DNA of 36,658 nucleotides from Brevinematales bacterium (GTDB taxonomy: Bacteria; Spirochaetota; Brevinematia; Brevinematales; GWF1-51-8): the NCBI GenBank assembly GCA_013177895.1, contig JABLXV010000059.1, forward strand, positions 1 to 36,658, given 5' to 3'. The translations under genes and the position numbers were made by a program. Below are positions 10,420 to 28,656 of this stretch, in pieces (within the stretch, counting starts at the first letter, position 1; every line of letters begins with the position of its first letter). The notes under the pieces are model-generated. The model had not been told where the DNA came from. It searched no databases and saw nothing but the letters and a program-made list of their open reading frames with translations.

Positions 10420-11208
10420 TTGATTTACAGACTGCTTTTTATTATCACGGTTTCCGTAGTACTCAGCGGATGTCAAGTGGAGGTAAGCAGTTATCTACCT
10501 AATACGGGAGATTTTTCCGCGATAGCGTCTATGCCCGCCGGGAGTACCAACCATAACCCCGCATTCAAAGGCCCCTACGTCAATATCACCAATATCAATT
10601 ACACCGACACTTTTCACGGTACGACCACTATCGCCGAACTCCGTTATATCATGGAATCGCAGGGCGATTTTGTAGGCGGGAATTACCAGATCAAAGGGGT
10701 AATCACAGGACTCTGTTCCTACGGCGGGGCATTCACCTCCTATCAGCTCTATGTGCAGGACTGTACCGGCGGGATTTACTTCTGGGTATCCGGCGGCGTT
10801 TCTGGCGTGACATCCACCTGCCTCGGGCAGGTGATTACATGCACGGTGACCGCCGCGCAATCGTATAAAGGCCTGAAAGAAGTATCCGCGGTGTCCGGGG
10901 TGAGTGTGACTCCTACGGGCGCGCCGTCCGCGATCTATGTCCAGGATCTCCGGAATCTGGCGGGTATCGAGGATGCGATAGTGATCCGCGCGACCGGGAC
11001 TGTCAAAGAAGTCAAGAAGGATTCGTCGGGCGTGCAGGTGGTCTATTTTAACGAGAGTATCCCGCCGTATTATTCCATCAACGGCGCTTACTCGCCCGGA
11101 GACCGTGTCACGATGATCGGGCCGTTATGGATGGGCAATCAGTTACTGATGATAGACGGATACGAAGCGTATGTCCATGTAGATACGACCTATACGTCGA
11201 TATGGTAG
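10420..11208 (+). CDS. Secreted lipoprotein with OB-fold-like beta domains
   Basis: 262 residues from a TTG start with GGGGAG 7 bases upstream; no ATG in this frame fits the signal peptide. The lipobox is VVLSGC. The mature protein has two beta-rich halves: GGNYQIKGVITGLC...SYQLYVQDCTGGIYFWV, then AIVIRATGTVKEV...GVQVVYFNES. Each resembles the nucleic-acid-binding OB folds found in secreted nucleases and DUF5689-like proteins. A role in binding nucleic acid at the cell surface is suggested by the neighbours, but it is an inference. It is the first gene of the plus-strand nuclease cluster and is separated from the next gene by a repeat. Confidence 0.7.
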   Translation: MIYRLLFIITVSVVLSGCQVEVSSYLPNTGDFSAIASMPAGSTNHNPAFKGPYVNITNINYTDTFHGTTTIAELRYIMESQGDFVGGNYQIKGVITGLCSYGGAFTSYQLYVQDCTGGIYFWVSGGVSGVTSTCLGQVITCTVTAAQSYKGLKEVSAVSGVSVTPTGAPSAIYVQDLRNLAGIEDAIVIRATGTVKEVKKDSSGVQVVYFNESIPPYYSINGAYSPGDRVTMIGPLWMGNQLLMIDGYEAYVHVDTTYTSIW

Positions 11209-11508: not shown

Positions 11509-13500
11509 ATGAGTAAAAAGGCGATTTTTGGTTCGTCTTTACTGGCGATACTCGCGCTGTTCGCGGCCGGATGTACTACCGAACCGGTCGATGGAAATAA
11601 TCCAGCGCAAGCCGGTCCTACTATTACGATAACCAGTCCCGCTGAGGGGTTTGTGAGCTCGGATACTAACGTGACCGTATCCGGTACTGCGTCCGACTCC
11701 GACGGAGTGATAGGGACCTACCTGAAAGTGGATAGCGGCGCATTTAAGAAAATCGGTACGACGTCGTTCAATACGAATCTTGTCTTAGCTCCGGGCGCGC
11801 ATGTCCTGAAGATCTACGCGTTCGACGGGCAGGCTAATTCGTCCGCGACTAATACCCGTAATATTACGGTATCGATCGCGGGTAGTGACTCTATCCCGCC
11901 TGTATTGACTGTTACCTCTCCCGCATCGGCATCGACGGTCTCAGGGACTTCCAACGTAACGCTTGCGGGCACGGTTTCCGACAACCTGAGCGGTGTCGAG
12001 GGCGTATACCTGAAAATCAACGCCGGCGCATTCGCTAAGTTCGCCGCTGGGGATTTCAGTACGAATTTGATTTTTGCTAACGGTACGACGAACACGTTGA
12101 AAATATACGCGATGGACGTATCGAACAATATTTCCGCGACCAATGAGTTCGAAGTAATTATCGCGGTCGGTTTCGTAGGCCCGAACTGGGACTTTGAAGC
12201 ATGGACGGGGAATTGGCCCGATAACTGGACGAACGCGTTGAACGGTATTACGGCGGTTGACTTTACCACAGTCGCAAAGAGCGCGCTGAACAATGGCTAC
12301 GGCGGTACCGGGTATGCTGTGAGCTTGAGCCAGTCTTCGGTAAATTATCCTATGCTGTGGAATAAAACGGAGATACCCGTTACGGCGGGCGATCAGGTGA
12401 TCGTGAAGTATTTCGCGAAGATGATTTCCGGTGCGCCGAGATGCACCACCTACATGGCGTTTTACAACGGTACCAATCAGACGGGCTTCATAAACAAGTA
12501 TTATGGTTCGACGTATATCCTTGACGGCTCATGGAAGGAAATCTATACCGTTACCACCATCGGTGCGGGAACCAACTATATGTATGCGGGCATCGAAGGC
12601 GCAAGCAGTAGTTATACCGGCGCCTTCCTCGCGGACGGTATGATCGCCGGAGTCATCAGCGATATTGACAGCGTTGCTCCTTCTATCGATAGCTGGACCA
12701 CGCCTGCCGATGCATCCACCCAACTGATCGGTTCCGTCGGGTTCGCCGGTACGGTGAGCGACGACGTAGCTGTTAAGTATGTTTATGCGTCTATCGGAAG
12801 CGTGACCAATATGGCAGTGCCTGCCAGTGGTGCGTTTACGGTAAACGTCAGCTATCTGACGACAGGAACGAATTTAGATATTTATCTCTGGGCGGAAGAT
12901 TTCGCGGGGCATGTTTCAACTCCTCTCAATCGTACAATAACGCTCACCAATATGGATACCAGCGGATTGCCGACTGAATTGTTCTTCTCGGGATATTTTG
13001 AGAGCGCGCCGGGTAGTCGTAAAGCGATTGTAATCTATAATCCTACTACGAATACGGTTAATCTTGATGCATATAAACTTCATAAAGGTGTAAATGGCGC
13101 CGCTTTCCCCGGAACAATTCTTTCTCTCTCGAATCGCTCTATTCCGTCAGGCGCAGTGTTTGCAATTGGGCATGGCGATGCGACTAACCATATACTGCTC
13201 AATCTCACTAACAGTACTTTCTGTAATTGGAACGGTAACGATATAGTGGGTCTCTCGAAGAATGGCGTGCTTATCGATACCGTCGGTTTATTCGGTGATG
13301 TTCAAGCGACAGGATGGGCTGTAGCCGGTGTTGCAAATGCGACGGTAGATCATGTTCTTATTAGGAAATATATGGTTACTATAGGGACGAACGATTGGGC
13401 TGTCGCCGCAGGTACGGATGCGGGTTCTTCTCAATGGCAGGTATACAGTATCAATGCGGATGAATGGAGACTGACCAATTTCTCCTGCGTTAAGCCGTAA
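11509..13500 (+). CDS. Ig-like and lamin-tail-domain surface lipoprotein
   Basis: 663 residues with lipobox FAAGC. Two bacterial Ig-like domains follow (about 37-125 and 130-215), each beginning with the TITITSPAEG or VLTVTSPASA type strand and containing a VSGTASD or LAGTVSD motif. A central beta-sandwich (about 225-385, FEAWTGNWPDNW...) looks carbohydrate-binding-module-like. A third Ig-like unit lies at about 390-480. The C-terminal 170 residues match the lamin-tail (LTD) pattern: ELFFSGYFESAPGSRKAIVI, then YNPTTNTVNLDAYKL and SGAVFAIGHG. No catalytic motif is visible, so it is probably an adhesin or binding component. RBS AGGAGGAA; a strong terminator follows. Confidence 0.8.
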   Translation: MSKKAIFGSSLLAILALFAAGCTTEPVDGNNPAQAGPTITITSPAEGFVSSDTNVTVSGTASDSDGVIGTYLKVDSGAFKKIGTTSFNTNLVLAPGAHVLKIYAFDGQANSSATNTRNITVSIAGSDSIPPVLTVTSPASASTVSGTSNVTLAGTVSDNLSGVEGVYLKINAGAFAKFAAGDFSTNLIFANGTTNTLKIYAMDVSNNISATNEFEVIIAVGFVGPNWDFEAWTGNWPDNWTNALNGITAVDFTTVAKSALNNGYGGTGYAVSLSQSSVNYPMLWNKTEIPVTAGDQVIVKYFAKMISGAPRCTTYMAFYNGTNQTGFINKYYGSTYILDGSWKEIYTVTTIGAGTNYMYAGIEGASSSYTGAFLADGMIAGVISDIDSVAPSIDSWTTPADASTQLIGSVGFAGTVSDDVAVKYVYASIGSVTNMAVPASGAFTVNVSYLTTGTNLDIYLWAEDFAGHVSTPLNRTITLTNMDTSGLPTELFFSGYFESAPGSRKAIVIYNPTTNTVNLDAYKLHKGVNGAAFPGTILSLSNRSIPSGAVFAIGHGDATNHILLNLTNSTFCNWNGNDIVGLSKNGVLIDTVGLFGDVQATGWAVAGVANATVDHVLIRKYMVTIGTNDWAVAAGTDAGSSQWQVYSINADEWRLTNFSCVKP

Positions 13501-13582: not shown

Positions 13583-14182
13583 ATGTTCAAGCGCCTTTTT
13601 TTTATTATATCCGTTTTATCGCTCTTACTCACACTCGGGTGCCTCGGGGAACCCGACGGCAAGCCGTACTCCGGGCTGACCGGCCTCATGGAGACCCGTT
13701 CCTCCCTCTATGTGGAGGAAGTGCACTGGGCGGGGAGTGTCGATAATACCGGCGCGAACTCCAACCTCGACGATGACTTTATCGAGGTGTGCAACGCTTA
13801 TTACGGGGTGGTCGATTATTCCGGGTGGATCATTATAGTCGAGGGGCAGAGCTATCTGCGGATTGTCCTGCCGCAGGGGGCTGTGCTCGATAAGGGCGAT
13901 ACGTTCACAATCGGCAATAACACCAACGGCGCGTTTACGCAATTCGATATGATAGTCCCCGAGCTGAAACTCCCAAGCACGGGGTTTGTAATCAATATAT
14001 ACGACGGCGGCGGGAAAAAATACGCCGATACCGCCGATTTCGGGGTCAATGAACCGATGCCGGTGCTGGACCCGCTCGCGGTAGGGAATTATCTGCCGGG
14101 TCAATCTCTCGAAGACACGGAAATCCGCGGTACGCCTGAAGGATTCATACGGCGGGGCGATGTCCAGCTATTACACGATTGA
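13583..14182 (+). CDS. Lamin-tail-domain lipoprotein, apparently frameshifted near its C-terminus
   Basis: 199 residues as it reads now. The lipobox is LTLGC. From about residue 42 the protein is a lamin-tail domain: YVEEVHWAGSVD, DDDFIEVCNAYYGVVDYSGW, LRIVLPQGAVLDKGDTFTIG. This matches, block by block, the LTD regions of the PLD proteins at 14318 and 20858. The frame ends 23 residues after EDTEIRG, before the W...TPG ending those proteins share. A matching tail lies in the +1 frame directly downstream (see 14155-14309). RBS CGGAGA. Confidence 0.8.
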   Translation: MFKRLFFIISVLSLLLTLGCLGEPDGKPYSGLTGLMETRSSLYVEEVHWAGSVDNTGANSNLDDDFIEVCNAYYGVVDYSGWIIIVEGQSYLRIVLPQGAVLDKGDTFTIGNNTNGAFTQFDMIVPELKLPSTGFVINIYDGGGKKYADTADFGVNEPMPVLDPLAVGNYLPGQSLEDTEIRGTPEGFIRRGDVQLLHD

Positions 14183-14309: not shown

Positions 14310-14317
14310 GGGGAAAT

Positions 14318-16075
14318 ATGCGGAAACTTTTACTTTTATTCATCCTGTCGATTCCATTTATTTCGTGCAATCTCGGCGAGCCGCCCGCGGGAAATTTCTG
14401 GGAAGGGCGAAAGGTTCAGGTGTATTTCACCGATCCTGGGTATAGCGCTAAAACCGGGGTGGATGAAAAGATACAGGATAAAATCAAGATGCTGATCGAT
14501 TCCGCGAAGGATTCGGTTGACCTCTGCATCATGGGGTTTTCGGAGCCTACCATCTTCAGCGCGATTTACAGCGCGTGGAAACGCGGCGTAACCGTCCGGT
14601 TTGTCGGCGACTTCGGGTATCTGGACACCGCCGAGTACCAGACCCTTGTCGCGCTCGGTATCCAATTCCGTGTCGGAAATAAAGATAAGATCATGCACGA
14701 TAAATATATTATCGTAGATAAACGTTATGTGGTCTGCGGTTCGGCGAATTTCACCGAGACGGGGATGTTCAGGAATAATAACAACGTGCTGTTTATCGAT
14801 TCCCCGCAGATGGCGGCGTACTATACAGGCGACTTCGAGACCATGCTTATCAAGGGGCTTTTCGGTACCGATAAGACCGACCATTTTTTCCCGGGGTTCA
14901 CGAATAACGTGTTTCATCTGACGAACGCCGATAACTCGGTGACCGCTATCTCAGCGCATTTTTCGCCGTATTACGGCGTCAACGCCTCGGAAACTACCCG
15001 TATGGACAAGATATTTTTAAACCTGATCGATACCGCGCGGGAACGGATTTATTTCGCGATTTACGCGTTCACACACGCCGATATCGCGAACAAGATGATT
15101 TCCGCCGCGAAGCTCAATAATGTCCTGGTGTACGGCGTGTTCGATAAAAGCTGGCATACCGGGAATAACGCGTCCACGCATCAGTTGTTTATCGACGAGA
15201 TCGGCAATACCCCGAATATTTTCGTGAAGTATGACGGGAATAACAATCATGTCATAGGAAATACGTTGAGCGGCGAAAAATGCCATAACAAGTTTATGGT
15301 AATCGATCCGGGCACTACCAACGGCGTCGTGCTGACGGGGTCGATGAATTTCTCGAAAGCCGCGGCTTATAACGGCAATGACGAGAATTACCTCATTATC
15401 CGCGACCCGTTTATCGTGAATATGTACGCGAAGAACTTCGAGCAGATGTACGCGATCGGCGCTCATCCTACTAAGGACCTTGGCGGCGACGCTATGCAGA
15501 ATATGCGCGAGGTTACAATCAGCGAGATTTGCTGGGGCGGCAGTATGGATTTTGACGGATACCGCAAGGCGGACGACCAGTTTATCGAAGTGAAGAATAA
15601 CACCTCGCATGCGATCAACATATCGGGATGGTTTCTCTCCGGGATTACGCTTGTCCAGAAGGGGCATTATTATGTCATGTACATTTTCCCGGAGGGCACT
15701 GTTCTTCCGCCCGGGGGATTCCATGTACTGACCTACTCGACCAATTACGGGTATACCAAGCTCCAGGGGGCGAACACGTTCGAGCACCTGTTTTTCTTTA
15801 ACTCCATCGATCATCCTTTTATCGAAATTTGGCTGAAGGACAAGAACGGGGCGATTGTCGATAAGGCGGGATATTTCAGCGCCGGGTCGCTCGCGCCTCT
15901 GCACGGGGATGTGCTCGATAACGGCACGCCGTCGGCATACGTGAAGTCGATGGTGCGTGTCGGGACGAACGACGGCACATTGATAGGAAACTGGACGACA
16001 TGCGCGGTCAATCTCGCGGTGACGATGAACCCGTTATATAGAATAAACACATATGCCACTCCGGGTATGGAATGA
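14318..16075 (+). CDS. Phospholipase D-superfamily nuclease lipoprotein with lamin-tail domain
   Basis: 585 residues, lipobox PFISC (Cys17). Two complete HxKx4D motifs are present: HDKYIIVD (H127, K129, D134) and HNKFMVID (H323, K325, D330), each followed by the GSANF / GSMNF block. This is the full active site of a PLD-superfamily enzyme (bacterial Nuc-like endonucleases or phospholipases). Residues from about 397 form a lamin-tail domain (REVTISEICWGGSMD...DDQFIEVKN). The anchored position and its neighbours favour a surface nuclease, but phospholipase activity cannot be excluded. The frame follows 8 bases after the frameshifted tail and runs into the next gene. Confidence 0.88.
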   Translation: MRKLLLLFILSIPFISCNLGEPPAGNFWEGRKVQVYFTDPGYSAKTGVDEKIQDKIKMLIDSAKDSVDLCIMGFSEPTIFSAIYSAWKRGVTVRFVGDFGYLDTAEYQTLVALGIQFRVGNKDKIMHDKYIIVDKRYVVCGSANFTETGMFRNNNNVLFIDSPQMAAYYTGDFETMLIKGLFGTDKTDHFFPGFTNNVFHLTNADNSVTAISAHFSPYYGVNASETTRMDKIFLNLIDTARERIYFAIYAFTHADIANKMISAAKLNNVLVYGVFDKSWHTGNNASTHQLFIDEIGNTPNIFVKYDGNNNHVIGNTLSGEKCHNKFMVIDPGTTNGVVLTGSMNFSKAAAYNGNDENYLIIRDPFIVNMYAKNFEQMYAIGAHPTKDLGGDAMQNMREVTISEICWGGSMDFDGYRKADDQFIEVKNNTSHAINISGWFLSGITLVQKGHYYVMYIFPEGTVLPPGGFHVLTYSTNYGYTKLQGANTFEHLFFFNSIDHPFIEIWLKDKNGAIVDKAGYFSAGSLAPLHGDVLDNGTPSAYVKSMVRVGTNDGTLIGNWTTCAVNLAVTMNPLYRINTYATPGME

Positions 16076-16083
16076 GGGTAGAA

Positions 16084-17571
16084 ATGACGCTAAAGTATTT
16101 ATTTGCTCTGTTTATCGCGGCTGCGTTAAATAATGCATGCGCGCCGAATGAACATCTTATTATATTGCATACGGCGGACACGCTGTCGCAGTTCTTTAAA
16201 AATGAAGCGAGCGGGCTTGGCGGTTCGGCGCGCCTCAAATCTTATATCGAAAGTATCCGCGCGGCTTGCCCGAATGTTCTGGTTCTCGATTCCGGCGGAA
16301 TCCTTCCCGGTTCGGTCTACGCGTCCATATTCAAGGGTAAAGTGAACATCGAGATGATGAACGCCATGGGTTACACCGCGCTTGCGCTGGGGCACCATGA
16401 ATTCGACTACGGTATGGATAACCTGTTCATGCTTGACGACATCGCGAATTTCCCGTTCTTATCGGTGAACGTGATGGAGAAGAACAAAACGCGGACGGAG
16501 TTTACCCCGTATATTATCACCAATATCGCGGGCGCGAGTATTGTGATAATCGGCCTGACCACACCCGACCAGAATCTTTTTAACCGCAAGGTGGCGGAGC
16601 AGATCGATCTTTTGCCGCCGGAGCAGATTCTGAGCGATATCCTGCGCGGGAAAAAACTTGCCGAGACTAACGATATTGTGATACTCCTGAGTTATCTGGG
16701 CTTCGAACGTAACCTCGTGCTCGCGGAAGCATTTCCTGAGATAGATATTATCCTCTCGGGCTACGGGGATACAACGACTGTGATGCCGTATGTTACCCCG
16801 TCGACCTATATCGTGCAGCCCGGCAAGAACGGGAATTATGTCGGTAAGATAGACCTGACTATTTCCGAAGGGAAAATTAACACATTTAAGTATAATCTGG
16901 TCGCGATGAATAAAAATATTCCGGAATCGCAATGGGTTCTGACCTATCTGAGCGATAAGACCGAGATAGTCGACCAGAAGATGATGGAAAAAATATGCGA
17001 TTCGATGATTACCCTCGACGCTACCACGATTCGGTCGTTCCCGGGGCCTATCGGGAATATGGTAGCGGATATTCTCGCTGATACCGCCAAGGCCGAAATC
17101 GCGGTAATCAACTCCGGCTCGATCCGCGCGTCGATTCCGATGGGTACGGTTCATATCGGCGATATTTACCAGTTATTCCCCTATGAGAATTATCTGGTCA
17201 AGGGGAAGCTGTCCGGTTCGACGCTCAAGCAGATTATCAAGAAGGGTATCGATAAACGCGGCAGCGGCGGATTCCTGTATTATTCGAAGGGATTGAACGT
17301 GACTGTCGGGACGAATAAAGAAGTCAGTATTCTATGGAACGGAGCGCCGCTTCAGGACGGAAAGGATTATTCTATTGCGACCGCCGATTTTCTATGGATG
17401 GGCGGCGACGGTTATGTGGAGTTCCTGAAATCGCAGGATATGACCAATACGGGTATGCTGATACGCGACGCTATCCTCAACTACCTGAAGAACGCGCAGA
17501 TCATTACCGAACAGATCGCGGATCCGATACCGAGGATTGTATTTTTAATTGGAAAAACAGCGGTTAAATAA
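16084..17571 (+). CDS. 5'-nucleotidase (UshA) family protein with degenerate metal site
   Basis: 495 residues; I prefer the ATG at 16084 (GAGGG 5 bases upstream) over 16072, whose ATGA overlaps the previous stop. The signal peptide ends near LNNAC, a poor lipobox. The calcineurin-like half aligns with the next gene, but key residues differ. HFNDTH is HTADTL here, QAGD is DSGG, GNHEFD is GHHEFD, ITHSG is LSYLG, and GGHSHT is SGYGDT. Five or six of the seven usual metal ligands are therefore changed. The C-terminal nucleotide-binding half (NSGSIRASIP, GFLYYSKGL, GGDGYVEF) is preserved. It is probably a non-catalytic nucleotide binder; activity with other metals cannot be ruled out. Confidence 0.82.
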   Translation: MTLKYLFALFIAAALNNACAPNEHLIILHTADTLSQFFKNEASGLGGSARLKSYIESIRAACPNVLVLDSGGILPGSVYASIFKGKVNIEMMNAMGYTALALGHHEFDYGMDNLFMLDDIANFPFLSVNVMEKNKTRTEFTPYIITNIAGASIVIIGLTTPDQNLFNRKVAEQIDLLPPEQILSDILRGKKLAETNDIVILLSYLGFERNLVLAEAFPEIDIILSGYGDTTTVMPYVTPSTYIVQPGKNGNYVGKIDLTISEGKINTFKYNLVAMNKNIPESQWVLTYLSDKTEIVDQKMMEKICDSMITLDATTIRSFPGPIGNMVADILADTAKAEIAVINSGSIRASIPMGTVHIGDIYQLFPYENYLVKGKLSGSTLKQIIKKGIDKRGSGGFLYYSKGLNVTVGTNKEVSILWNGAPLQDGKDYSIATADFLWMGGDGYVEFLKSQDMTNTGMLIRDAILNYLKNAQIITEQIADPIPRIVFLIGKTAVK

Positions 17572-17700: not shown

Positions 17701-17726
17701 GTAAATAGATATTACCCGGAGGAAGT

Positions 17727-19217
17727 ATGAAAACCGTTCATGCGCTCAGACTCTTAGTCCTGATAATCGTCTTATTCGGCGCGTCCTGCGCGAAGACGGA
17801 AAAAATCGTCATCATGCATTTTAACGACACGCATTCCTATATGCTTCCTTATATCAACGCGAATAAAGAATCGCTCGGCGGCGCGGCGCGTCAGGTGACC
17901 ATTGTAAACACGTATCGCGTTAAATTCCCGGATATGCTCCTTGTCCAGGCGGGGGATACCCTTTCCGGTACTCTTTTCAGCTCGATATATAAAGGTACGA
18001 TGAATATCGAACTGATGAATAAAATGAAATTCGATATGATGACGATCGGCAACCATGAATTCGATTACGGTCTCAGCAATATTCTTGCGCTCAGGGCAAC
18101 GGCTCAGTTCCCGATGATGTCCGCCAATATCTTCGATAAAAAAACCGGCGAACGCATCTTCCTGCCGTATCTGATTAAAAATATCCACGGCGTAAAAATA
18201 GTATTCGTGGGGCTGACCACATCGAATGCCGGCGCGATCAATCAGGACGTGATCCAATCGATAAATATAATTCCGGAAGCGGAGACTCTCAAGGGTCTTC
18301 TTTCTACGCTGGAGCTGATGAAGACGAACGACCTCCTGATATGCATCACCCATAGCGGATTTACCCAGGATATGGAGCTTGCCGCGGCGGTACCCGGTAT
18401 CGATGTGATTATCGGAGGGCATTCGCATACCCCGATTTTTACTCCCGTGTATATCAGTAATACGATGATCCTACAGGCCGGGTATTACGGGCTTTATGCG
18501 GGGCTGCTGACACTGAATGTCGCGGACGGTAAAATTGCATCCAGCGAGTACGAACTGATTACTATTGACAGCAATATCGTAGAAGATAAAGATACCATAT
18601 CATATATTTCCAATAAAAACGCCGCGTTCAAGGCAATGATGGCGGAAAAGGTATGCGATTCCGATATTTACTTCGAACAGCAGGGAATCCGTGAAAACCA
18701 GCTTCCGCTCGGTAATTTTATCGCGGATATTATATGGCAGTCCACTCCCGGCGCGGATATGGCGATTGTCAACGCCGGCTCGATCCGTTACTATCTCCCC
18801 GACGGTGCGGTCACGTTGGGCGATATTACAGCGGTTTCCCCGTTCGATAACGAACTGTGTATCGTGAAGCTGCAGGGTAAGTATATCAAGGAGATTATGC
18901 TTGCCGGGGTGAAGAATCGCGGCGAAGGCGCGTTTCTGTACTATTCCAAAGGGGTGAAGATTGTCGCCGATAAGGCGAAGACCCCGGTGGTAACATTCAA
19001 AGGGAAACCCATCGACGATAAAAAGATTTATAAAGTCGCGGTCAGTGATTTTATGTCCAAGGGCGGAGATAATTATGTGCAGTTTACGAAAGGCGTGGAT
19101 ATTATCCATACCGGACTGAATTTCCGCGACCTGATCATCTCGTACCTGAAAAAGCTGAAAAAAATAACCGTTAAATCGATGGATATGACAAAACGTGTCA
19201 TACTCCCCGCGATATAG
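17727..19217 (+). CDS. 5'-nucleotidase (UshA/NTE) lipoprotein with intact active site
   Basis: 496 residues with lipobox LFGASC. The metallophosphatase half has all motifs: MHFNDTHSY, QAGDTLSG, GNHEFDYG, CITHSGF and GGHSHTP. The C-terminal half has the substrate-binding blocks NAGSIRYYLP, GAFLYYSKGV and GGDNYVQF. Family enzymes remove phosphate from extracellular nucleotides so that the nucleoside can be taken up. It is a paralogue of the preceding gene, from which it is separated by 155 bases holding the nested hairpin. RBS GGAGGAAGT. Place in the cluster: it would convert nuclease products to nucleosides outside the inner membrane. Confidence 0.92.
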   Translation: MKTVHALRLLVLIIVLFGASCAKTEKIVIMHFNDTHSYMLPYINANKESLGGAARQVTIVNTYRVKFPDMLLVQAGDTLSGTLFSSIYKGTMNIELMNKMKFDMMTIGNHEFDYGLSNILALRATAQFPMMSANIFDKKTGERIFLPYLIKNIHGVKIVFVGLTTSNAGAINQDVIQSINIIPEAETLKGLLSTLELMKTNDLLICITHSGFTQDMELAAAVPGIDVIIGGHSHTPIFTPVYISNTMILQAGYYGLYAGLLTLNVADGKIASSEYELITIDSNIVEDKDTISYISNKNAAFKAMMAEKVCDSDIYFEQQGIRENQLPLGNFIADIIWQSTPGADMAIVNAGSIRYYLPDGAVTLGDITAVSPFDNELCIVKLQGKYIKEIMLAGVKNRGEGAFLYYSKGVKIVADKAKTPVVTFKGKPIDDKKIYKVAVSDFMSKGGDNYVQFTKGVDIIHTGLNFRDLIISYLKKLKKITVKSMDMTKRVILPAI

Positions 19218-19233
19218 AAAAGGAGACCCTATT

Positions 19234-20847
19234 ATGAAATTATCCGCATTATTTATTATCACAGCGGCGTTATGCCTGACCGGTACCTATGTTTCCGCGC
19301 AGGAAGGCGAGACGCCGAAGGAAATCAAGACGGGTTCGACCAACGCGTCCGCGCTGAAATCGTTGACATTCACCGCGTACCTGCGGAATAACTTTTACTT
19401 CTTCGTCAACGGCGACCTGAAGAATACGGACAGTTCGAGTTATGCGACTGTCGAGTATTCCGACGATGCGGCTTTTATCGGGTTTTCCGAGATAGGGGTT
19501 TCCGCGAAGGCGGAGATTCTCGACTATATCACGCTCGCGGTTGACGTATCCCGCCCGGGGTACTGGGGTAACGACTCCATGACGACCGGCTCGACGTACA
19601 ACGCGTTCTATCTCTGGACGCTGTACAGTAAATTCGACCTCGCGAAGGCGGCGCTGAATCTCCCGTCGATAGGGCTCGATGTGACAGTCGGGCGGTTGCA
19701 GGTCGCGATTATCGATACGGACGACCATAATAACTATGTTCTCGACGATACCCTCGACGCATTCCGGGTGGATTTCCTCGCGAAGGATGCCGGGATCGGC
19801 GCGAGTGTTTTCGTCGATTTCTTCTCGCTCAATTCGCCTGTCGACGATATATATTCTCTCAAATCTCCCCGCCATGATTACACGGTGCCTTACTTCGACG
19901 GGGACGTCAATATTTTCAAAATGGGGATTATGCCGTACTGGAAGATGACCGGCGCGGCGGACGATTTTATCAGGACTCTCCTCGCCAGTCCGTACTTCCT
20001 TTTCGCGCGCGTGGGCGCTACGGGGGACGGGACTTACGATATGGGCGGCTACGAAATATCGAAGGTCGGCACCGAGGGGAATTATGCCGATAACGACTGG
20101 CTGATGATCGCGGGGCTGGACGTCCTGTTCGATACGAAGGTGGTCTCGGTGCTCTTCGAGGGCGCTTACTCGTTCGGTATCGACCGGAAAAGTACCGATA
20201 AGCCGAATGTCGATATATCCGGGCTTCTCCTGCACGGTTCCATAATAGTGCCGTTCAAGGAGATGGGTTTGGATTGGTTCAAATTTATCGCGGATGTGGT
20301 CTACACAAGCGGCGCGTCCACGGATAAGTACGGGAATTACCTGAATTACGGGTTTGTCTCCATGAAGGGCGACAAGATCGGGGGATATATCTATAATAAG
20401 TACTACGGGGTCTACCCGTCGGCATACGTCAACTACTCCGGCATCGATTTCGATCCGATAGTGGCGAAGCATAAAGCCCCGATATTCTCCGCGTCGGCAA
20501 AACTCGCAATCGAGAACCTCGACCTGTCCGGCAATGCACCCGGCAAACAGGGGTTGAACGCCGGCGTCGAGGGATGGTTCTATATGGATACGAGTACGAC
20601 CTCGATGGATACGAATATGGCGCTTCCGCCCGACGTATACGACCAGATACGCCTCGGCCGTCTCATGGGAATTGAAATCGACTGGTCGGTGTCTTATGTG
20701 TTCAGTCAGGGTGTGTTCGAGATCGGGTTCGAGGGCGGCCTTTTCCTCCCCGGCGCGTTCTACGCGTACTACAGCAGTCTGAAAGACGCCCCGTTCGGGA
20801 ACCAGCCCGCGTTCGGGTGCGATTTGTTTACCGAGCTGGAGTTTTGA
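19234..20847 (+). CDS. Putative outer-membrane beta-barrel protein
   Basis: 537 residues starting at 19234 (AAAGGAGA upstream); an earlier in-frame ATG at 19195 lies inside the previous gene. The type I signal peptide ends in YVSA before QEG, with no lipobox Cys. The mature protein shows alternating hydrophobic/polar strands with many aromatic residues (LTFTAYLRNNFYFFVNG, LDWFKFIADVVYT). It ends in Phe (FTELEF), as is usual for outer-membrane barrels. It follows the 5'-nucleotidase by 16 bases. A pore for nucleotides or oligonucleotides is a reasonable guess from context, not from homology. Confidence 0.7.
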   Translation: MKLSALFIITAALCLTGTYVSAQEGETPKEIKTGSTNASALKSLTFTAYLRNNFYFFVNGDLKNTDSSSYATVEYSDDAAFIGFSEIGVSAKAEILDYITLAVDVSRPGYWGNDSMTTGSTYNAFYLWTLYSKFDLAKAALNLPSIGLDVTVGRLQVAIIDTDDHNNYVLDDTLDAFRVDFLAKDAGIGASVFVDFFSLNSPVDDIYSLKSPRHDYTVPYFDGDVNIFKMGIMPYWKMTGAADDFIRTLLASPYFLFARVGATGDGTYDMGGYEISKVGTEGNYADNDWLMIAGLDVLFDTKVVSVLFEGAYSFGIDRKSTDKPNVDISGLLLHGSIIVPFKEMGLDWFKFIADVVYTSGASTDKYGNYLNYGFVSMKGDKIGGYIYNKYYGVYPSAYVNYSGIDFDPIVAKHKAPIFSASAKLAIENLDLSGNAPGKQGLNAGVEGWFYMDTSTTSMDTNMALPPDVYDQIRLGRLMGIEIDWSVSYVFSQGVFEIGFEGGLFLPGAFYAYYSSLKDAPFGNQPAFGCDLFTELEF

Positions 20848-20857
20848 GAGGGAACGG

Positions 20858-22423
20858 ATGAATTTATCGATAATACGCAAACTTTTATTACCGGCGGCGA
20901 TGGGCTTCGGATTGATACTGAGCGGCTGCGCGGAACCGCCTGCGAACGGGGGATACGATACGCTCGAGTTTATCCCGTCTAGCGGGAGACTGACGCTCGC
21001 GACCGCTATCGGTTCGGCGACTAACGCGATCTATGTAGCGGTCAGGGATATGAACGACGCGGGGATTATCGCCGCGCTCGAGGCCGCCGCGTCGAAGCAG
21101 GTGACTGTCAAGCTGCTGGTTGACGCCGATTATAAGGCGGGGCTGACCGGCATCTCGCCGTCGGTATCGACCAATTTCGGCAACACCTACGGCAATATGG
21201 ACGACAACTTCTTTATTATCGACGGGATGATTTACCTGCTGTCATCGGCCGATATCGCGTCGGATAAGTTCGTGATGTTCAAGATGACCGACCGCGATAT
21301 GCTCTACAGCTTCGAGAGCGAGTTCAACCAGATGTTTCGCGACGGGCGTTTCGCATACGGGAGCGACAGCTACGAGAAGAAACTCCCGCTTAATCAGGTA
21401 CAGGGATATTATATTAACGATAACTGGGTCGAGCTGTATTTCCAGCCGACCGACAGCATACTTGCGCATATCCGCGCGAGGCTCGGCCAGACATACGAAT
21501 CGATTCAGGGTAATCTGCGCGACCTCGACCAATCGGGGCTTGCGCTCATGCTGAACGACGTGATGAACTCGTGCCCCGGATGCAGGCTCGATTTCGCTCC
21601 GGGCGCGATTACGAAGCTGTCGAACTACGCGTATCTGCTGACTAACGGCGGGCGCGTCCTCGATACGTCGTTCGACTTCAACATGATATTCGTCGATATT
21701 GACACGGATTACCGCACCCTGATATTTACCACATTCGACCTGATGGACGATGCCGCGATACTCCGAAACGACGGAACGTGCGTCATCATCTCCGGGCCGG
21801 CCGTGAAGGATATTTACAACGCGGTCGCGGTGAAGACTTCCGGCGCGGGGGTATCGAATGTCACGATCGCGCCGCCGGTGTATAAGTCGCCGGTCGTGCT
21901 TCACGATGTTGTGTTCAGCGAGATATTATGGAAGGGAATTAAGCTGAGCGGCGCCGATCTCGATTACGGGCCGTGCTTTATCGAGTTGAAAAATGTGACC
22001 GCGCAGTCCGTCAATATCGGGGGCTTCCGCGTCATTATCACCAATTACAACGTGCAGACCGAGCCGAATATATTCACAATCCCATACGGGACGGTATTGG
22101 AACCCGGCGGGCATTACACGATCGCGTCGAGCACGAAGGTATTCTCGGTGTATGATTTCTACTGGCAGTGGATATTTATCAATCACACCGGGTTTACGAT
22201 GGTACTGCAGGACGGGATGGCGAATAATATCGACCGCGCCGCCGACGTCCTTATCGCGCCGTCGAGCTATAACGGCGGGCAGGGTATCCCGATGGTACGC
22301 GACCTGACATTGCCTGTCGGAGACGGCGCGCTGACGACCGAATGGAACGCCGCGGTGACGATGAAGAATTATTATCCGACCTATGCCGCCTATGGAAACC
22401 TCGGTACGCCGGGAACGGATTGA
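20858..22423 (+). CDS. Degenerate phospholipase D-like lipoprotein with lamin-tail domain
   Basis: 521 residues, lipobox ILSGC (Cys24). The fold parallels the 14318 protein, but both HxKx4D sites are changed. The first reads DDNFFIID (D115, N117, D122) and the second DFNMIFVD (D273, N275, D280). His to Asp and Lys to Asn occur identically in both halves. The segment after the first motif (LLSSADI) still aligns with CGSANF. From about 348 it is a lamin-tail domain (LHDVVFSEILWKG...CFIELKNVTAQSVNIGGF), ending GTPGTD. It probably lacks PLD chemistry and may bind substrate, or the changed site may do something else. It follows the barrel gene by 10 bases, with RBS GAGAGGG. Confidence 0.82.
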   Translation: MNLSIIRKLLLPAAMGFGLILSGCAEPPANGGYDTLEFIPSSGRLTLATAIGSATNAIYVAVRDMNDAGIIAALEAAASKQVTVKLLVDADYKAGLTGISPSVSTNFGNTYGNMDDNFFIIDGMIYLLSSADIASDKFVMFKMTDRDMLYSFESEFNQMFRDGRFAYGSDSYEKKLPLNQVQGYYINDNWVELYFQPTDSILAHIRARLGQTYESIQGNLRDLDQSGLALMLNDVMNSCPGCRLDFAPGAITKLSNYAYLLTNGGRVLDTSFDFNMIFVDIDTDYRTLIFTTFDLMDDAAILRNDGTCVIISGPAVKDIYNAVAVKTSGAGVSNVTIAPPVYKSPVVLHDVVFSEILWKGIKLSGADLDYGPCFIELKNVTAQSVNIGGFRVIITNYNVQTEPNIFTIPYGTVLEPGGHYTIASSTKVFSVYDFYWQWIFINHTGFTMVLQDGMANNIDRAADVLIAPSSYNGGQGIPMVRDLTLPVGDGALTTEWNAAVTMKNYYPTYAAYGNLGTPGTD

Positions 22424-22437
22424 TAACGGAGGAGATT

Positions 22438-24117
22438 TTGAAATATTTCATAGCGGCAACATTAACAATAATACTTTCCCTTGCGTGCACCAATCTTTCG
22501 GATTTATCGCCCGCATCCGGCGGGAGCGGTAATTACGCGGTCGCTATCCTCAATCCGTCGTTCGACAGCACGAATGCCCTGCCGCTTAGTATTGAAGGCG
22601 TGAAGGGTTCCGATATCAAGAGCCTTGTCGTGATGGGGGGGAAGACCCCGAAGATTGCCGGGCTCGCGGGCAATATATGGAGCGTACAGTACCTTGCCGA
22701 CGAAGTCTATCCCGGGCAGAACGTATTCTCCGTCTACGGGAAAGACCTTACCGGGAAAACCGCGACTATCGCTTACCTGACTATCATTATCGGGGATTAC
22801 CGCGATATCACGCCGCCCGCCGTGGCGGTGGATTACCCGACCGAGGGGCAGACCGTCGATACCACGAATATTATTATATCCGGGACAGCCTCCGACCCCG
22901 CGCCGAATTCCACCGGAGTGAAAGAAGTCTATGTCGCTATCGACTGCCTCGCGTGCTTCACGCTCGCGTCCGGTACGACGAACTGGACATGCGCGAAGAC
23001 CCTCCCTACCAATAACGCCCCGCACGGGGTTTATTACTACGCGGTGGATAACGCCGGGAACTACAGCCATACCAATTCGTTCACATTCACCTATAATCAG
23101 GTCGCGAGCGTCGACAATCCGCCGACGGTCAGTATTACCGCGCCTACAAACGGTTCGTATATCACGTCGAATCCCGTAAATATCGCGGGTACGGCGGCGG
23201 ACGATAACGGTGTGGCGTCGGTGGAGATTTCCGTTAACGGCGGGGCGTATTCCAACGCCGCCGGGACGGTCTCATGGAGCAAGCCGCTGAATTTCGCGAA
23301 CGGGACATATTATGTTATCGTGAGGTCGAAGGACACGGCGGCGCAGTACAGCTCGCAGAAGCAGATAACGTTCACGATCAATACGAACGCCCCTACCGGG
23401 TACTACAGCGGGATCAACCCCGGATCGACTACGTTGAAGGCCGACCTGCATAACCTGATATACAGCCATAGCGAGCAAACCTATACCTATCTTTGGACGG
23501 CGTTCCAGACCACCGATAAGAAGGCGAACGGAAAGGTTTGGGACATGTATTCCGATATACCGGGCGGTACGCCCCCGTATGAATACACGTTCGGGAGCGA
23601 CCAGTGCGGGACATACTCCGGCGAGGGTAGCTGTTATAACCGCGAGCACTCGTGGCCGAAAAGCTGGTTCAACGACCTGACGCCGATGTACTCCGACTTG
23701 TTCCACCTGTATCCGACCGACGGGTATGTGAACGGTAAGCGCAGCAATTATGCGTTCGGTGAGGTCGGCAGTACGAGCTGGACGTCCCTGAACGGGTCGA
23801 AACTCGGCATATGTAACTGGCCGGGGTTCTCCGGGACGGCATTCGAACCTATCGATGAATATAAAGGAGATTTCGCCCGGTCATATTTCTATATGTGCGT
23901 CTGTTACTACGGGGAGGATTCGGGATGGAGCGCTTCGGATATGACCTATCATGCGACACTCCTCCCGTGGGCGGAAGCCATGCTGCGGACATGGAGCGCG
24001 CAGGACCCTGTCAGCCAGAAGGAGATCGACCGGAACGACGCGGTGTACGCTATTCAGGGCAACCGCAACCCGTTTATCGATCATCCCGAATGGGTTCAGT
24101 TAATCATGGATTTCTAA
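22438..24117 (+). CDS. Endonuclease I-family lipoprotein with three Ig-like domains
   Basis: 559 residues from a TTG at 22438 (GGAGGAG just upstream); the longer frame would overlap the previous gene. The lipobox is LSLAC (Cys17). Three Ig-like domains occupy about 28-115, 120-215 and 220-312. The C-terminal 235 residues are endonuclease I: DLHNLIY, then NREHSWPKSWF with the catalytic His region, DLFHLYPTDGYVNGKRSN, and NRNPFIDHPEW near the end. Related enzymes cut DNA or RNA non-specifically outside the cell. The Ig domains may present the enzyme on the surface. It is 14 bases after the PLD-like gene. Confidence 0.9.
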   Translation: MKYFIAATLTIILSLACTNLSDLSPASGGSGNYAVAILNPSFDSTNALPLSIEGVKGSDIKSLVVMGGKTPKIAGLAGNIWSVQYLADEVYPGQNVFSVYGKDLTGKTATIAYLTIIIGDYRDITPPAVAVDYPTEGQTVDTTNIIISGTASDPAPNSTGVKEVYVAIDCLACFTLASGTTNWTCAKTLPTNNAPHGVYYYAVDNAGNYSHTNSFTFTYNQVASVDNPPTVSITAPTNGSYITSNPVNIAGTAADDNGVASVEISVNGGAYSNAAGTVSWSKPLNFANGTYYVIVRSKDTAAQYSSQKQITFTINTNAPTGYYSGINPGSTTLKADLHNLIYSHSEQTYTYLWTAFQTTDKKANGKVWDMYSDIPGGTPPYEYTFGSDQCGTYSGEGSCYNREHSWPKSWFNDLTPMYSDLFHLYPTDGYVNGKRSNYAFGEVGSTSWTSLNGSKLGICNWPGFSGTAFEPIDEYKGDFARSYFYMCVCYYGEDSGWSASDMTYHATLLPWAEAMLRTWSAQDPVSQKEIDRNDAVYAIQGNRNPFIDHPEWVQLIMDF

Positions 24118-24130
24118 AGGAAGTATCTTT

Positions 24131-25594
24131 ATGCCGAAACGGCGCATTATATACCCGCTCTTATTTATTTTACTGATTGCGTCATTATATTCATGCACAA
24201 ACCTGCGCGACCTCGCGGGTACTGCCGGCGCGCCGCAGTATACCAATATCATCATCATAACACCGTCGATGGGCGAGGTGGTCATGCGCCCGGTGACAAT
24301 CGAGGGAGTATCCGGCGGCGATATCAAGTCGATAGTCGTGATCGGGGGCTACAACCCTAAAATAGTCGACCTTCTGCCGGACGGTTCGTGGAGCACGACG
24401 CTCGAGGTCTATGAAATCGACGATGGGATACATCTCCTGCGGTTTATCGGGAAGGGCGCGGACGGGGCTAACCTGAACGAGGTTAGACTTCTCCTGAATA
24501 TCGAGGTGGGGGTTTCCGGGACGAACCTGCCGGTAGTGACTGTCGACGAACCGCCTGTTGACGGTAAAATTTACACCACGAATAAAATATCCATCTACGG
24601 CGCCGCCGGGGACGCCGCCGGGCTGGAAGGGGTTTATTTCTCGCTGAACGGTACGGTCTACGGCAAGACCGCCGGGATTGTATATGGCGCGCTCACGGGG
24701 GATTGGTCGACCAACCTGACGCTTACCAACGGGAGTTATATCGCGTATGTGAAGGCGAAGAACACCCTCGGGGTGGAGAGCATGGTCACGCAGGTCAATT
24801 TCACGGTCAGCAGTAATTTTAATCCGTCCGACCCGTATTTCTTTTATTACTCGTCCGCCTACGGGAAGACGGGGCTTGCGCTCAAAAACGCGTTGCACGA
24901 TATCATCGACCAGCACACTGTTTTTCCCTACACCAGTTATACTACGGATGTCTGGGATGCGCTGAGAGTATTGGACGAAGACCCTGGCAACCCGGATAAT
25001 GTGCTGACGATCTATGCGCATCAATCGATCGCGAAAAATAAACAGAGTACCGGGACGGAAGACCGGTGGACAGTGTGGGAGCGCGAGCACACATGGCCGA
25101 ATACCTACGGTTATAATGATGAAACGGACTGGCCGCCTTATACGGACTTGTTCGCCCTCCGTCCGGCAATCGGCGGGGTAAACCTCGACCGTCTGGACGA
25201 CCCGTTCGATAACGGCGGAACAGCGAAGGCCGGAACCGGAAATTATATCTACCTGACGAACGGTATCGTGCCGCCCAGCCTGAAAGAAGTGAATGTCAAT
25301 GTCACATGGGAAGTGCCGGACGATGTCAAGGGCGATATCGCGCGGGCGATGTTCTATATGGCGGTGCGTTACGCGGGGAATCTCCCCAACGAGCCCAACT
25401 TGGAATTGATCGATTCGATCATGCTCACCAATGGCCTGCCTTTTATGGGTAAACTTTCTACCCTGATCCAATGGCATCTCGCCGACCCGACTAATGCGGC
25501 TGAAATGCTTCGGAACGACCTGATCTATTTTTACTACCAGCATAACCGGAATCCGTTCATCGACCACCCCGAATGGGTGACGAATATCTGGTAA
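24131..25594 (+). CDS. Endonuclease I-family lipoprotein with Ig-like domains (second copy)
   Basis: 487 residues, lipobox SLYSC (Cys22). The N-terminal domain is clearly related to that of the previous protein (VTIEGVSGGDIKSIVVIGG against LSIEGVKGSDIKSLVVMGG). A second Ig-like domain follows. The endonuclease I domain (about 235-487) has WEREHTWPNTYGY, DLFALRPAIGGVN and HNRNPFIDHPEW. It differs from the first copy in the second block (LRPAIGG against LYPTDGY), so the pair belongs to two subgroups rather than a recent duplication. RBS AAGGAAG. Probably a surface-anchored nuclease. Confidence 0.9.
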   Translation: MPKRRIIYPLLFILLIASLYSCTNLRDLAGTAGAPQYTNIIIITPSMGEVVMRPVTIEGVSGGDIKSIVVIGGYNPKIVDLLPDGSWSTTLEVYEIDDGIHLLRFIGKGADGANLNEVRLLLNIEVGVSGTNLPVVTVDEPPVDGKIYTTNKISIYGAAGDAAGLEGVYFSLNGTVYGKTAGIVYGALTGDWSTNLTLTNGSYIAYVKAKNTLGVESMVTQVNFTVSSNFNPSDPYFFYYSSAYGKTGLALKNALHDIIDQHTVFPYTSYTTDVWDALRVLDEDPGNPDNVLTIYAHQSIAKNKQSTGTEDRWTVWEREHTWPNTYGYNDETDWPPYTDLFALRPAIGGVNLDRLDDPFDNGGTAKAGTGNYIYLTNGIVPPSLKEVNVNVTWEVPDDVKGDIARAMFYMAVRYAGNLPNEPNLELIDSIMLTNGLPFMGKLSTLIQWHLADPTNAAEMLRNDLIYFYYQHNRNPFIDHPEWVTNIW

Positions 25595-25619
25595 AAATTC
25601 CCGTCAAACAACATTTCTA

Positions 25620-25647: not shown

Positions 25648-25707
25648 GATTCACGGTCGCTTATGATATAGTTGTTGATAAGCCCTGATAAAAATTCGGA
25701 GGGAAAT

Positions 25708-28008
25708 ATGAAAAGAATAATCTCGCTGGTAGTTTTCAGCGTCATGATCCTCGCGGGGAACGGTTACCCGCAGAGTAAGACGGATACGGCGATCAAAGCG
25801 CCGGAAGTGGTATTCCCCAAGGAAAATGCCGAGATAGCGGGGAATTCCCTGACTGTATCCGGCGAATATATTCATGTGAAAGATAAACCCGCGTTGAAGG
25901 GAATTTTTGCGGCGATAGATAAAAGCGCCGATATGAAGCCGGTGAGCGGCGCGGGGAAGTGGAAAATCACGTTCGACGGGCTTTCCGCCGGGAAACATGT
26001 CCTGACGGTGTACGCCGAGGATATTACGGGCGCGCTCTCCGATAAGAAGGAGATGGTTATCACCATCAACCCGTCACAAGCGGATAAAACCGCCCCCACG
26101 GTGAAATTCACCCTCGAGGGCACGAACGTCCGCATCCCGTACGATACGTTTATGCTGTCCGGTACGGCGGACGACGGGCTTCTCGATACGAGCGGGGTCA
26201 AGGAAGTCAGGTACGCGGTCGATAACGGCGAATGGAAGACAGCGGGCGGCGCGGCGGTGTGGGAATTCAAGCTGGAGGGGTTGTCGAACGGGGAGCATGC
26301 GATCAGCGTGAAGGCTATCGACGGGGCGGGAAACGAAGGCGCCCCGACAGTCCTGAAGGTGCGGATCGACGTACCGCTGGCATGGTACCGTATCCTCAGC
26401 GTCGGCGGTATGCTCGTCCTATTGGGTATTGCGTTCCTGATGTCCAATAACCGCAAGGCGATCAAGCTGAAAACGGTCTTATGGGGTATCGCGCTCCAAC
26501 TTCTCTTCGCGATCATTATCCTCGGCGACGGAATCCTGTCGTTTATCGGGATGTTTATATTTACGTTTATGATACTTTTCTATATATTTGAAAAGGACAT
26601 GAAGAACATTAAAATGAACCCGGTTCTTTTCGCACTCATCATACTCCTGGGCGGAGCCGCCGCCGTAGTGGGATTCTATTTCGTGGAAAAAATCGGCAAT
26701 CTCCACATTGCTACTTATTTACTGCTTGCGGTACTGGTATTTTATATCGTAATGCTGCTCGCGAAAAAGGGCGAATGGGCGCGAAACGCGTTTGTCGGGG
26801 TGGTGATACTCGCAGTCGCGGTGCTTTGGGCGCGCGGGATATCCGGCCAGCAGTTGATGGCGTTTCTGTCGGATAAAGTTTCCGGGTTCCTTTCGCTGAC
26901 GTGGAAGGGCACGGAGTTCCTGCTCGGCAGTCAGGTCATCGAAATCATGCGCCAGAATAATATCTACGTGTTCATCGTGAGCGTCATCCCGACCATCATC
27001 TTCTTCTCGGCGTTCATGTCGATGCTGTACTACCTCGGTATCATACAGGTCGTGATCTCCGCGATGGGGAAATTTATGATGTGGAATATGGGGACGAGCG
27101 GCGCGGAAACCTTATCGTGCTCCGCGAATATCTTCGTCGGCCAGACCGAAGCCCCGTTCCTGATAAAGCCGTTCCTGGCGGATATGACCAAGTCCGAGCT
27201 GAACGCGGTGATGATCGGGGGATTTGCCACTATCGCGGGAGGAGTGCTCGCGGCATATATCGGGCTGGGGGTTCCGGCACAGCACCTGATCGCGGCGAGC
27301 GTGATGTCGGCGCCGGCGGCGCTCGTGATGGCGAAGATCATCCATCCTGAGACCGAGACATCGAGGACGGCGGGCGACGCGGAAATGCCCGACATTAAAG
27401 TCGGCGATAATGTGGTGGAGGCGATCGCCGCAGGTACTACCGACGGTCTGAAGCTTGCGGCTAATGTCGCCGCAATGCTCCTGTCGTTCATCGCGATACT
27501 GGCGTTCCTGGACGTCCTTCTCGGGTGGGGCGACAAATTAATCGACGGGATGATACTAGGAGGGAAGCTCGGCCCCGACGGCGGACATGCGGGAATATTC
27601 CCGATGAGCATGAAGGAACTGTTCGGGTTCGTGTTCCGTCCGCTCGCGTTCGTCATGGGCGTCCCGTGGGACGATTCCGCCGCAGTCGGCAATATGCTGG
27701 GGCTGAAGATCAGTATAAACGAATTTATCGCATATATTACATTAGGCGACCATATCGCGGCGAACAATATGCTAGCGGCGGGCACGCTGAAAACCGGGGC
27801 GATGGTCATATCGCAGAAAGCGGTCATAATATCGACCTACGCGTTCTGCGGGTTCGCGAATTTCAGTTCGATCGGTATCCAGATCGGCGGTATCAGCGCG
27901 TTGTCGCCGGAACGCCGTTCCGACCTCGCGTCGCTCGGGCTCAAAGCGATGATAGGCGGAGCGCTCGCGTCATGGATGACCGCGACTATCGCGGGAATGC
28001 TGTTATAG
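25708..28008 (+). CDS. NupC-type concentrative nucleoside transporter with N-terminal Ig-like domains
   Basis: 766 residues; the start at 25708 is set by GGAGGG 6 bases upstream. An N-terminal signal-like segment is followed by two Ig-like domains (about 30-120 and 128-222), the second with FMLSGTADD and EHAISVKAIDGAGNEG. The membrane part starts at about 226. It carries the CNT signature GTSGAETLSCSANIFVGQTE (462-481) and the later CGFANFSSIGIQ. CNT proteins import nucleosides with sodium or protons. Typical bacterial NupC is about 400 residues. Here the extra length is the Ig pair and additional membrane helices around 280-380. The Ig pair should face the periplasm. Confidence 0.9.
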   Translation: MKRIISLVVFSVMILAGNGYPQSKTDTAIKAPEVVFPKENAEIAGNSLTVSGEYIHVKDKPALKGIFAAIDKSADMKPVSGAGKWKITFDGLSAGKHVLTVYAEDITGALSDKKEMVITINPSQADKTAPTVKFTLEGTNVRIPYDTFMLSGTADDGLLDTSGVKEVRYAVDNGEWKTAGGAAVWEFKLEGLSNGEHAISVKAIDGAGNEGAPTVLKVRIDVPLAWYRILSVGGMLVLLGIAFLMSNNRKAIKLKTVLWGIALQLLFAIIILGDGILSFIGMFIFTFMILFYIFEKDMKNIKMNPVLFALIILLGGAAAVVGFYFVEKIGNLHIATYLLLAVLVFYIVMLLAKKGEWARNAFVGVVILAVAVLWARGISGQQLMAFLSDKVSGFLSLTWKGTEFLLGSQVIEIMRQNNIYVFIVSVIPTIIFFSAFMSMLYYLGIIQVVISAMGKFMMWNMGTSGAETLSCSANIFVGQTEAPFLIKPFLADMTKSELNAVMIGGFATIAGGVLAAYIGLGVPAQHLIAASVMSAPAALVMAKIIHPETETSRTAGDAEMPDIKVGDNVVEAIAAGTTDGLKLAANVAAMLLSFIAILAFLDVLLGWGDKLIDGMILGGKLGPDGGHAGIFPMSMKELFGFVFRPLAFVMGVPWDDSAAVGNMLGLKISINEFIAYITLGDHIAANNMLAAGTLKTGAMVISQKAVIISTYAFCGFANFSSIGIQIGGISALSPERRSDLASLGLKAMIGGALASWMTATIAGMLL

Positions 28009-28020
28009 CGCGGGGGTAAA

Positions 28021-28656
28021 GTGAAAGACCCTATCATTATCGGGATAGCAGGCGGTTCCGCGTCGGGAAAGACCACGCTCGCGGACAGGATTATCGCCGA
28101 GATTACGTCGGATATCGTCCTGATCCGGCACGATAACTATTACAAACGGCAGGACCATATACCGCTCGCGGATCGGCCCAAGGTGAATTACGATCACCCC
28201 TCCGCGTTCGATACCGATCTCCTGATCGCCGACCTGAAACGGCTCTGCGACGGGCGTTCGGTCGAAGTCCCGGTCTATTCCTACATCGAGCATAACCGCA
28301 CCGATCAGGCGGTTCCGGTGCGCCCCGCGCGCGTCATCATAGTCGAGGGGATTCTGGTGCTGGAAAATCCGCAGATGTCGGAAATGATGGATATTAAGGT
28401 ATTCGTGGACGCGGACGCCGACCTCCGGCTGATACGGAAAATCAAGCGCGACGTGATCGAACGGAAACGTACCCTCGAATCGGTGATCGCGCAGTACGAG
28501 AATTTCAGTAAGCCGATGCACGAGCAGTTTATTGAGCCTACCAAGAAGAAGGCGGATATCATTATTCCCAACGGGGGATATAATGAGGTGGGGATCGGGA
28601 TGCTGATCGATAAAATCCGGGCGATTATCGCCGAAAAACAGAGGAGTCTCCCGTGA
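28021..28656 (+). CDS. udk: Uridine kinase
   Basis: 211 residues from a GTG (28021) with GGGGG upstream. The P-loop is GGSASGKTT (11-19). RHDNYYK, the NYDHPSAFDTDLL nucleoside-binding segment and RPARVIIVEGILVL are diagnostic of uridine/cytidine kinase. It phosphorylates uridine and cytidine to monophosphates in the cytoplasm. It lies 12 bases after the nucleoside transporter, so imported pyrimidine nucleosides would be trapped at once. The length is normal. Confidence 0.92.
   Translation: MKDPIIIGIAGGSASGKTTLADRIIAEITSDIVLIRHDNYYKRQDHIPLADRPKVNYDHPSAFDTDLLIADLKRLCDGRSVEVPVYSYIEHNRTDQAVPVRPARVIIVEGILVLENPQMSEMMDIKVFVDADADLRLIRKIKRDVIERKRTLESVIAQYENFSKPMHEQFIEPTKKKADIIIPNGGYNEVGIGMLIDKIRAIIAEKQRSLP

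Follow-up and report, generated by a model that had tools for sequence, protein, structure and literature searches.

Enzymes of the HKD phospholipase D (PLD) type carry the motif HxKx4D in both halves of the fold, and its lysine holds the phosphate. The histidine of the motif acts as the nucleophile (PMC6008594). A profile of the HKD-less proteins considered here finds its best PDB sequence matches in NucT of Helicobacter pylori (6ehi, E 5.8e-12) and then Nuc of Salmonella (1byr, 2.4e-8), which are comparable in their outer-membrane setting and nucleic-acid salvage context; for NucT, purine salvage is named in the title of an earlier study (Liechti and Goldberg 2013, cited in PMC13328217). The protein of this study differs from both in lacking the HKD motif in both halves, in carrying the two halves in one chain and in the addition of a probable lamin tail domain (LTD).

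An altered HKD motif is also found in the poxvirus F13 protein, and F13-type proteins share the PLD fold with our protein, whose structural model matches them in Foldseek, but are viral. We know of no PLD5 or F13-type protein with asparagine at both former lysine positions. PLD5, which is eukaryotic, is similar in having a missing or altered HKD motif within a two-half PLD fold (PMC6008594). The best-studied pseudo-PLDs are the FAM83 proteins of vertebrates with their SACK1 domain (DUF1669), which have one degenerate motif in which the histidine is usually lost and the lysine is kept or replaced by arginine (PMC6008594). They resemble the present lineage in the PLD fold, the degenerate motif, the retained aspartate and their non-catalytic character, whereas the present lineage consists of bacterial lipoproteins and has asparagine for both lysines; its match to SACK1 is marginal (E 6.5e-4, in one of twelve members).

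In SusD-type systems a non-catalytic binding lipoprotein is encoded beside an outer-membrane channel and degradative enzymes. The gene arrangement of the present locus is alike by analogy, although SusD-type surface lipoproteins have an unrelated fold and the barrel of the locus is, on a weak model, closer to AlgE and porins than to SusC. A further parallel is provided by loci for the degradation of extracellular DNA in Izemoplasmatales and in Shewanella (ExeM), which according to excerpts of the two reports share secreted nucleases, LTDs, nucleotidases and nucleoside uptake (PMC8289736, PMC6085458). In these excerpts, DNA-foraging Izemoplasmatales possess secreted nucleases, nucleotidases and LTD proteins (PMC8289736) and the LTD of the extracellular nuclease ExeM aids nuclease activity but is not essential for it (PMC6085458); the same excerpts differ from our locus in describing no pseudo-PLD (PMC8289736, PMC6085458). 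A search of the open literature, outside which most subscription papers lie, found no description of a spirochaete pseudo-PLD, of the asparagine pair or of such a protein in a bacterial operon.

The HKD-less lipoprotein and its two altered sites

The window, the whole stretch of 36,658 nucleotides that was analysed, is one contig of the 3.6 Mb genome of a Brevinematales bacterium. It encodes a pseudo-PLD lipoprotein of 521 residues (20858..22423, + strand) that consists of a lipobox-type N-terminus (LILSGC), an HKD-less two-half PLD-like region (residues ~45-320) and a probable C-terminal LTD (residues 350-460). A first, sequence-only reading of this DNA had set DDNFFIID and DFNMIFVD in this protein against HDKYIIVD and HNKFMVID in the paralogue at 14318..16075 (+ strand), an LTD-containing, NucT/Nuc-like protein and presumed nuclease, and these motifs are exactly as it read them. 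Site 1, DDNFFIID, occupies 21200..21223 (+ strand, residues 115-122) and site 2, DFNMIFVD, 21674..21697 (+ strand, residues 273-280), each in place of HxKx4D. In three alignments (MAFFT of six HKD-less and seven HKD proteins, MAFFT of 42 sequences and a profile-profile comparison of the two groups) DDN is aligned with HDK and DFN with HNK at equal spacing to the final aspartate. The HKD-less and HKD profiles match over 314 columns (hhalign, E 1.4e-19; 2.8e-15 with a narrower sequence set), so that homology extends over both halves, beyond the first half that Pfam detects, and the window protein belongs to the two-half PLD fold.

Individual domain models are less sensitive to this relationship. 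The score of the window protein against PLDc_2 (PF13091) is 19.9 bits and thus below the 27-bit cut-off, and the same model matches weakly in eight of twelve members of the lineage; the LTD (PF00932) scores 31.9 bits (E 1.9e-7), just below its cut-off of 34.3. No NCBIfam model matches the protein, which falls short of the NucT equivalog cut-off, and Pfam finds no SACK1 (FAM83) domain in it. By these membership tests it is placed outside the FAM83, NucT and catalytic PLD families. An AF2 model built from eight sequences has a pLDDT of 61.8 and a pTM of 0.45 with low confidence in the second half, and its Foldseek match to PLD reaches E 2e-11 over 359 columns but with a TM of ~0.2 and unreliable domain placement.

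A conserved pseudo-PLD lineage in Spirochaetota

Homologues were counted in a set of 37 distinct HKD-less sequences from eight Spirochaetota families, 35 of them readable at site 2, and none of the 37 carries HxKx4D at either site. The former lysine position holds asparagine in 33 of 37 sequences at site 1 (threonine in two, aspartate and histidine in one each) and in 29 of 35 at site 2 (serine and glutamine in three each), while the final aspartate is kept in 37/37 and 34/35. The former histidine position is scattered, with Y in 11, E in 8, R in 8, D in 5, S in 2 and one each of Q, F and K at site 1, and G in 20, P in 6, S in 5, D in 3 and W in one at site 2. After lineage weighting the two asparagines reach conservation values of 0.97 and 0.96 and rank 7 and 8 among 283 columns; the former histidine positions rank 94 and 186. 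The family rule read from these sequences is xxNx4D in both halves. A homologue alignment, which the first reading had named as the check on its paired D and N, therefore bears out the asparagine and the final aspartate but not the residue at the histidine position. Two distant members illustrate the range: the sites read SANFVVID and WFNIMVSS in G014, which belongs to the same class, and QSNFAIID and SCNIIIID in G025, which comes from a different Spirochaetota family.

The wider sample comprised 393 genomes from the larger phylum, some of them incomplete. A phylum search with a narrow profile (A1) seemingly gave only six HKD-less members, because distant members scored no better with it than HKD-PLDs do. 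Further members were found among the neighbours of homologues of the outer-membrane barrel described below, in families f20 (eight genomes) and f32, and a broad profile (A5) built from twelve diverse members of the lineage added others in f9, f35 and f45 and second copies in f20. Very long pseudo-PLDs of ~800-1765 residues with several LTD and Ig-like domains are encoded at L132:3964-7785, L131:3716-9010, L142:5266-8763 and L145:5288-9949; in f20 genomes such long proteins occur on top of the short form.

A tree of 16 HKD-less and 26 HKD-bearing proteins, calculated with the motif columns excluded, divides the two groups by a single branch (support 100/99); several HKD-less members, G014 and G025 among them, have long branches and the inner order is less certain. 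Proteins that score higher with A5 than with the HKD profile all lack the motif and all others possess it, a classification that is slightly circular since the motif columns are included, which the tree avoids. With xxNx4D at both sites, no HKD motif and a place on the HKD-less side of the branch, the window protein is a member of this lineage. An origin by recent duplication of the neighbouring PLD gene is rejected, as the HKD-less proteins group with one another in the tree.

Orthologues within the genus are 78% (G001), 83% (G002) and 67% (G003) identical to the window protein; in G002, site 2 and some of the LTD are hidden by masked base runs (L043/L035), and this sequence was not counted at site 2. 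Between the window and G002, the pair on which the selection figure rests since dS is near saturation in other pairs, the pseudo-PLD gene has a dN of 0.050 and a dS of 0.492 (dN/dS ~0.1) and the gene of its HKD twin a dN of 0.037 and a dS of 0.512. The pseudo-PLD gene is thus constrained almost as strongly as that of the HKD enzyme.

The first reading had argued against random decay as the source of the double change, and purifying selection in the genus together with Lys-to-Asn and the retained aspartate at both sites across eight families agree with it. Its reason, that matching changes are unlikely by chance, gains strength from the deep conservation of Lys-to-Asn in homologues but has less force in one sequence; there the match is only mildly unlikely, His-to-Asp and Lys-to-Asn each requiring a single base change, and the case therefore depends on the homologues. 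Taken at the level of sequence, these data support the view that the window protein is a maintained pseudoenzyme.

Operon and outer-membrane barrel

Genes from 10420 to 29519 all run in the same direction with mostly short gaps. The series begins with a DUF5689-like lipoprotein (10420..11208, + strand), which has an orthologue in G003, followed by an Ig-like plus LTD protein (11509..13500, + strand), a small LTD lipoprotein (13583..14182, + strand), the HKD-PLD with LTD, two 5'-nucleotidase paralogues, the outer-membrane barrel protein (OMP) and the pseudo-PLD; two endonuclease I-like proteins, a NupC transporter, a uridine kinase and PhzF come after it. An LTD protein accompanies the OMP, pseudo-PLD and PLD genes in the cluster lineages examined.

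The first nucleotidase paralogue (16072..17571, + strand) has lost its metal-site residues, whose identity we take from UshA, and retains the nucleotide-binding C-terminal domain. It reads DTL for DTH, GG for GD, GHH for GNH and GYGD for GHSH, with SYL as a further replacement. Where the four genomes of the genus are readable (the G002 copy is in two fragments), all lack these metal ligands, and the gene is under constraint (dN 0.109, dS 1.63 against G001). The second paralogue (17727..19217, + strand) keeps intact metal-site motifs (NDTH, GD, GNHE, HSG and GHSH). The presence of two dead enzymes in the operon, a nucleotidase and a nuclease, would fit a pair of enzyme-derived binding proteins.

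Downstream of the pseudo-PLD lies an endonuclease I-type lipoprotein (22342..24117, + strand, 8.9e-81). With the listed ATG, which adds the segment 22342-22440, the gene overlaps the 3' end of the pseudo-PLD gene; a position close to 22441, in front of the lipoprotein signal, is the more likely start. The second, divergent endonuclease I-like protein (24131..25594, + strand, 1.5e-32) retains EREH-WPN but is altered around VN-DR. A general pairing of each hydrolase in the operon with a dead twin holds for the PLD and the 5'-nucleotidase but is not shown for endonuclease I. The NupC-type nucleoside transporter (25672..28008, + strand; TIGR00804, 6.7e-115) is 778 residues long, with an extra N-terminal Ig-like/OmpL47-type part before the usual 400-residue transporter, and the uridine kinase (28021..28656, + strand) has an NCBIfam match above the cut-off. 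The company of a NucT-like PLD, endonuclease I, 5'-nucleotidase and a nucleoside transporter and kinase points to a predicted role in extracellular nucleic-acid scavenging.

The LA_2168-like OMP (19195..20847, + strand) lies directly upstream of the pseudo-PLD with a gap of ~10 bases. It matches NF047476 at 2e-7, below the cut-off, and its model, which is weak (pLDDT 49.1), consists nearly throughout of long beta strands; Foldseek matches of this low-confidence model are AlgE (2.1e-5), MOMP and OmpT. In the 393-genome sample all 30 genomes with a pseudo-PLD have the OMP, as compared with 5 of the other 363, and of the 81 genomes in which any PLD match occurs 47 lack the OMP. A Fisher test of the co-occurrence (p 4e-40) takes no account of shared ancestry and has descriptive value. 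The genes for OMP, LTD protein, pseudo-PLD and HKD-PLD are linked in families f1, f5, f13, f20 and f32 in varying order, namely OMP-pseudo-LTD-PLD in f5, PLD-OMP-pseudo-LTD in f13, OMP-LTD-pseudo-PLD in f20 (with endonuclease I nearby in most) and, in f32, a pseudo-PLD with LTD followed by LTD, OMP and PLD. The linkage therefore outlasts rearrangement. The OMP and pseudo-PLD matches of f9 and f35 are on separate contigs, and G008, an 86% complete genome, has the OMP and an HKD-PLD without a pseudo-PLD. A second OMP homologue stands apart from any PLD gene at L120 and L129 (G067 and G061, f20). Given the strict link between them, the dead protein may work at the barrel, and the recurrent linkage to OMP, LTD and HKD-PLD genes suits the structural-partner role that the first reading had offered as one of its options.

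Possible roles of the pseudo-PLD

Since both histidine and lysine are gone, hydrolysis by the HKD mechanism is excluded by the sequence, and the options that remain would be binding or docking. The reading that we favour, with a probability of about one half, is that the pseudo-PLD belongs, as a subunit without catalytic function, to an outer-membrane module that handles extracellular nucleic acid, where it holds or hands over substrate or docks a nuclease at the barrel. It is a lipoprotein with a two-half PLD fold and kinship to NucT/Nuc-type nucleases, and it has lost both histidines and both lysines, the latter mostly replaced by asparagine. The HKD-bearing PLD and endonuclease I would cut DNA or RNA, the pseudo-PLD would hold or pass the poly- or oligonucleotide at the barrel, or dock the nuclease there, the 5'-nucleotidase would strip the phosphate, NupC would take up the nucleoside and uridine kinase would trap it after import. 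In this scheme we infer the surface location, the barrel contact, the nucleic-acid binding and the order of the pathway. The lost lysines are the would-be phosphate holders. Without them the former pocket may be unable to bind nucleic acid, and a docking role fits equally. A more ambitious version appears unlikely at present: across Spirochaetota a porin-like channel would have as its obligate partner a member of one family of pseudo-nuclease lipoproteins, which would serve as its nucleic-acid receptor or gate in a SusC/SusD-like arrangement derived from a dead nuclease.

A purely scaffolding protein, whose dead PLD fold would contact other proteins (the barrel, the HKD-PLD or LTD proteins) but no substrate, much as the pseudo-PLD domains of FAM83 contact CK1 kinases, is the best of the alternatives, if a doubtful one. 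Both phosphate-binding lysines are lost in the whole lineage and the pseudo-PLD co-occurs tightly with the barrel, as such a protein might; FAM83 proteins require the aspartate of their degenerate motif to bind partners (PMC6008594), and the same aspartate is the best kept here. The conserved asparagine at both old lysine positions hints instead that the pocket itself still matters. The length and the several LTD and Ig-like domains of some relatives could also suit a surface protein of unrelated role, in adhesion or envelope structure, that has nuclease genes as neighbours by chance, but chance is an improbable account of the recurrent linkage to HKD-PLD, LTD and OMP genes, joined in several lineages by endonuclease I or 5'-nucleotidase.

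The first reading had also raised a metal-dependent DxNx4D site, and a new enzyme or metal site formed by the paired aspartate and asparagine residues now appears highly improbable. Every readable sequence of the genus has aspartate at both former histidine positions (site 2 of G002 being masked), but aspartate at both sites is confined to this genus: of the five site-1 aspartates, four belong to it and the fifth is in G207 (DLNLCVGD), whose site 2 starts with G. Outside the genus mostly Y, E, R, S, Q, F or K is found at site 1 and G, P, S or W at site 2, no carboxylate pair is constant besides the aspartate of the HKD motif, and G003, of the same genus as the window, has DxD (DSD) at site 1. 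A DxNx4D metal site in both halves is therefore rejected as the function of the family and would at most be a genus-level feature. Simple decay of a copy of the neighbouring PLD gene, for which the lost catalytic residues might speak, is ruled out by the dN/dS of ~0.1 and the deep conservation, and the homologues have open frames without stops and form an old lineage of their own.

Pseudo-PLDs are known mainly from animals, as FAM83 and PLD5, and the proteins described here form a bacterial family, one that has no Pfam or NCBIfam model of its own and is marked by a shared Lys-to-Asn signature at both sites and by its strict co-occurrence with a single barrel. If the pseudo-PLD serves a machine for nucleic-acid uptake as its binding or docking component, as in the reading favoured above, this would account for the retention of a dead nuclease next to a live one, and, if true, it would offer a concrete route to testing how spirochaetes consume extracellular DNA or RNA.
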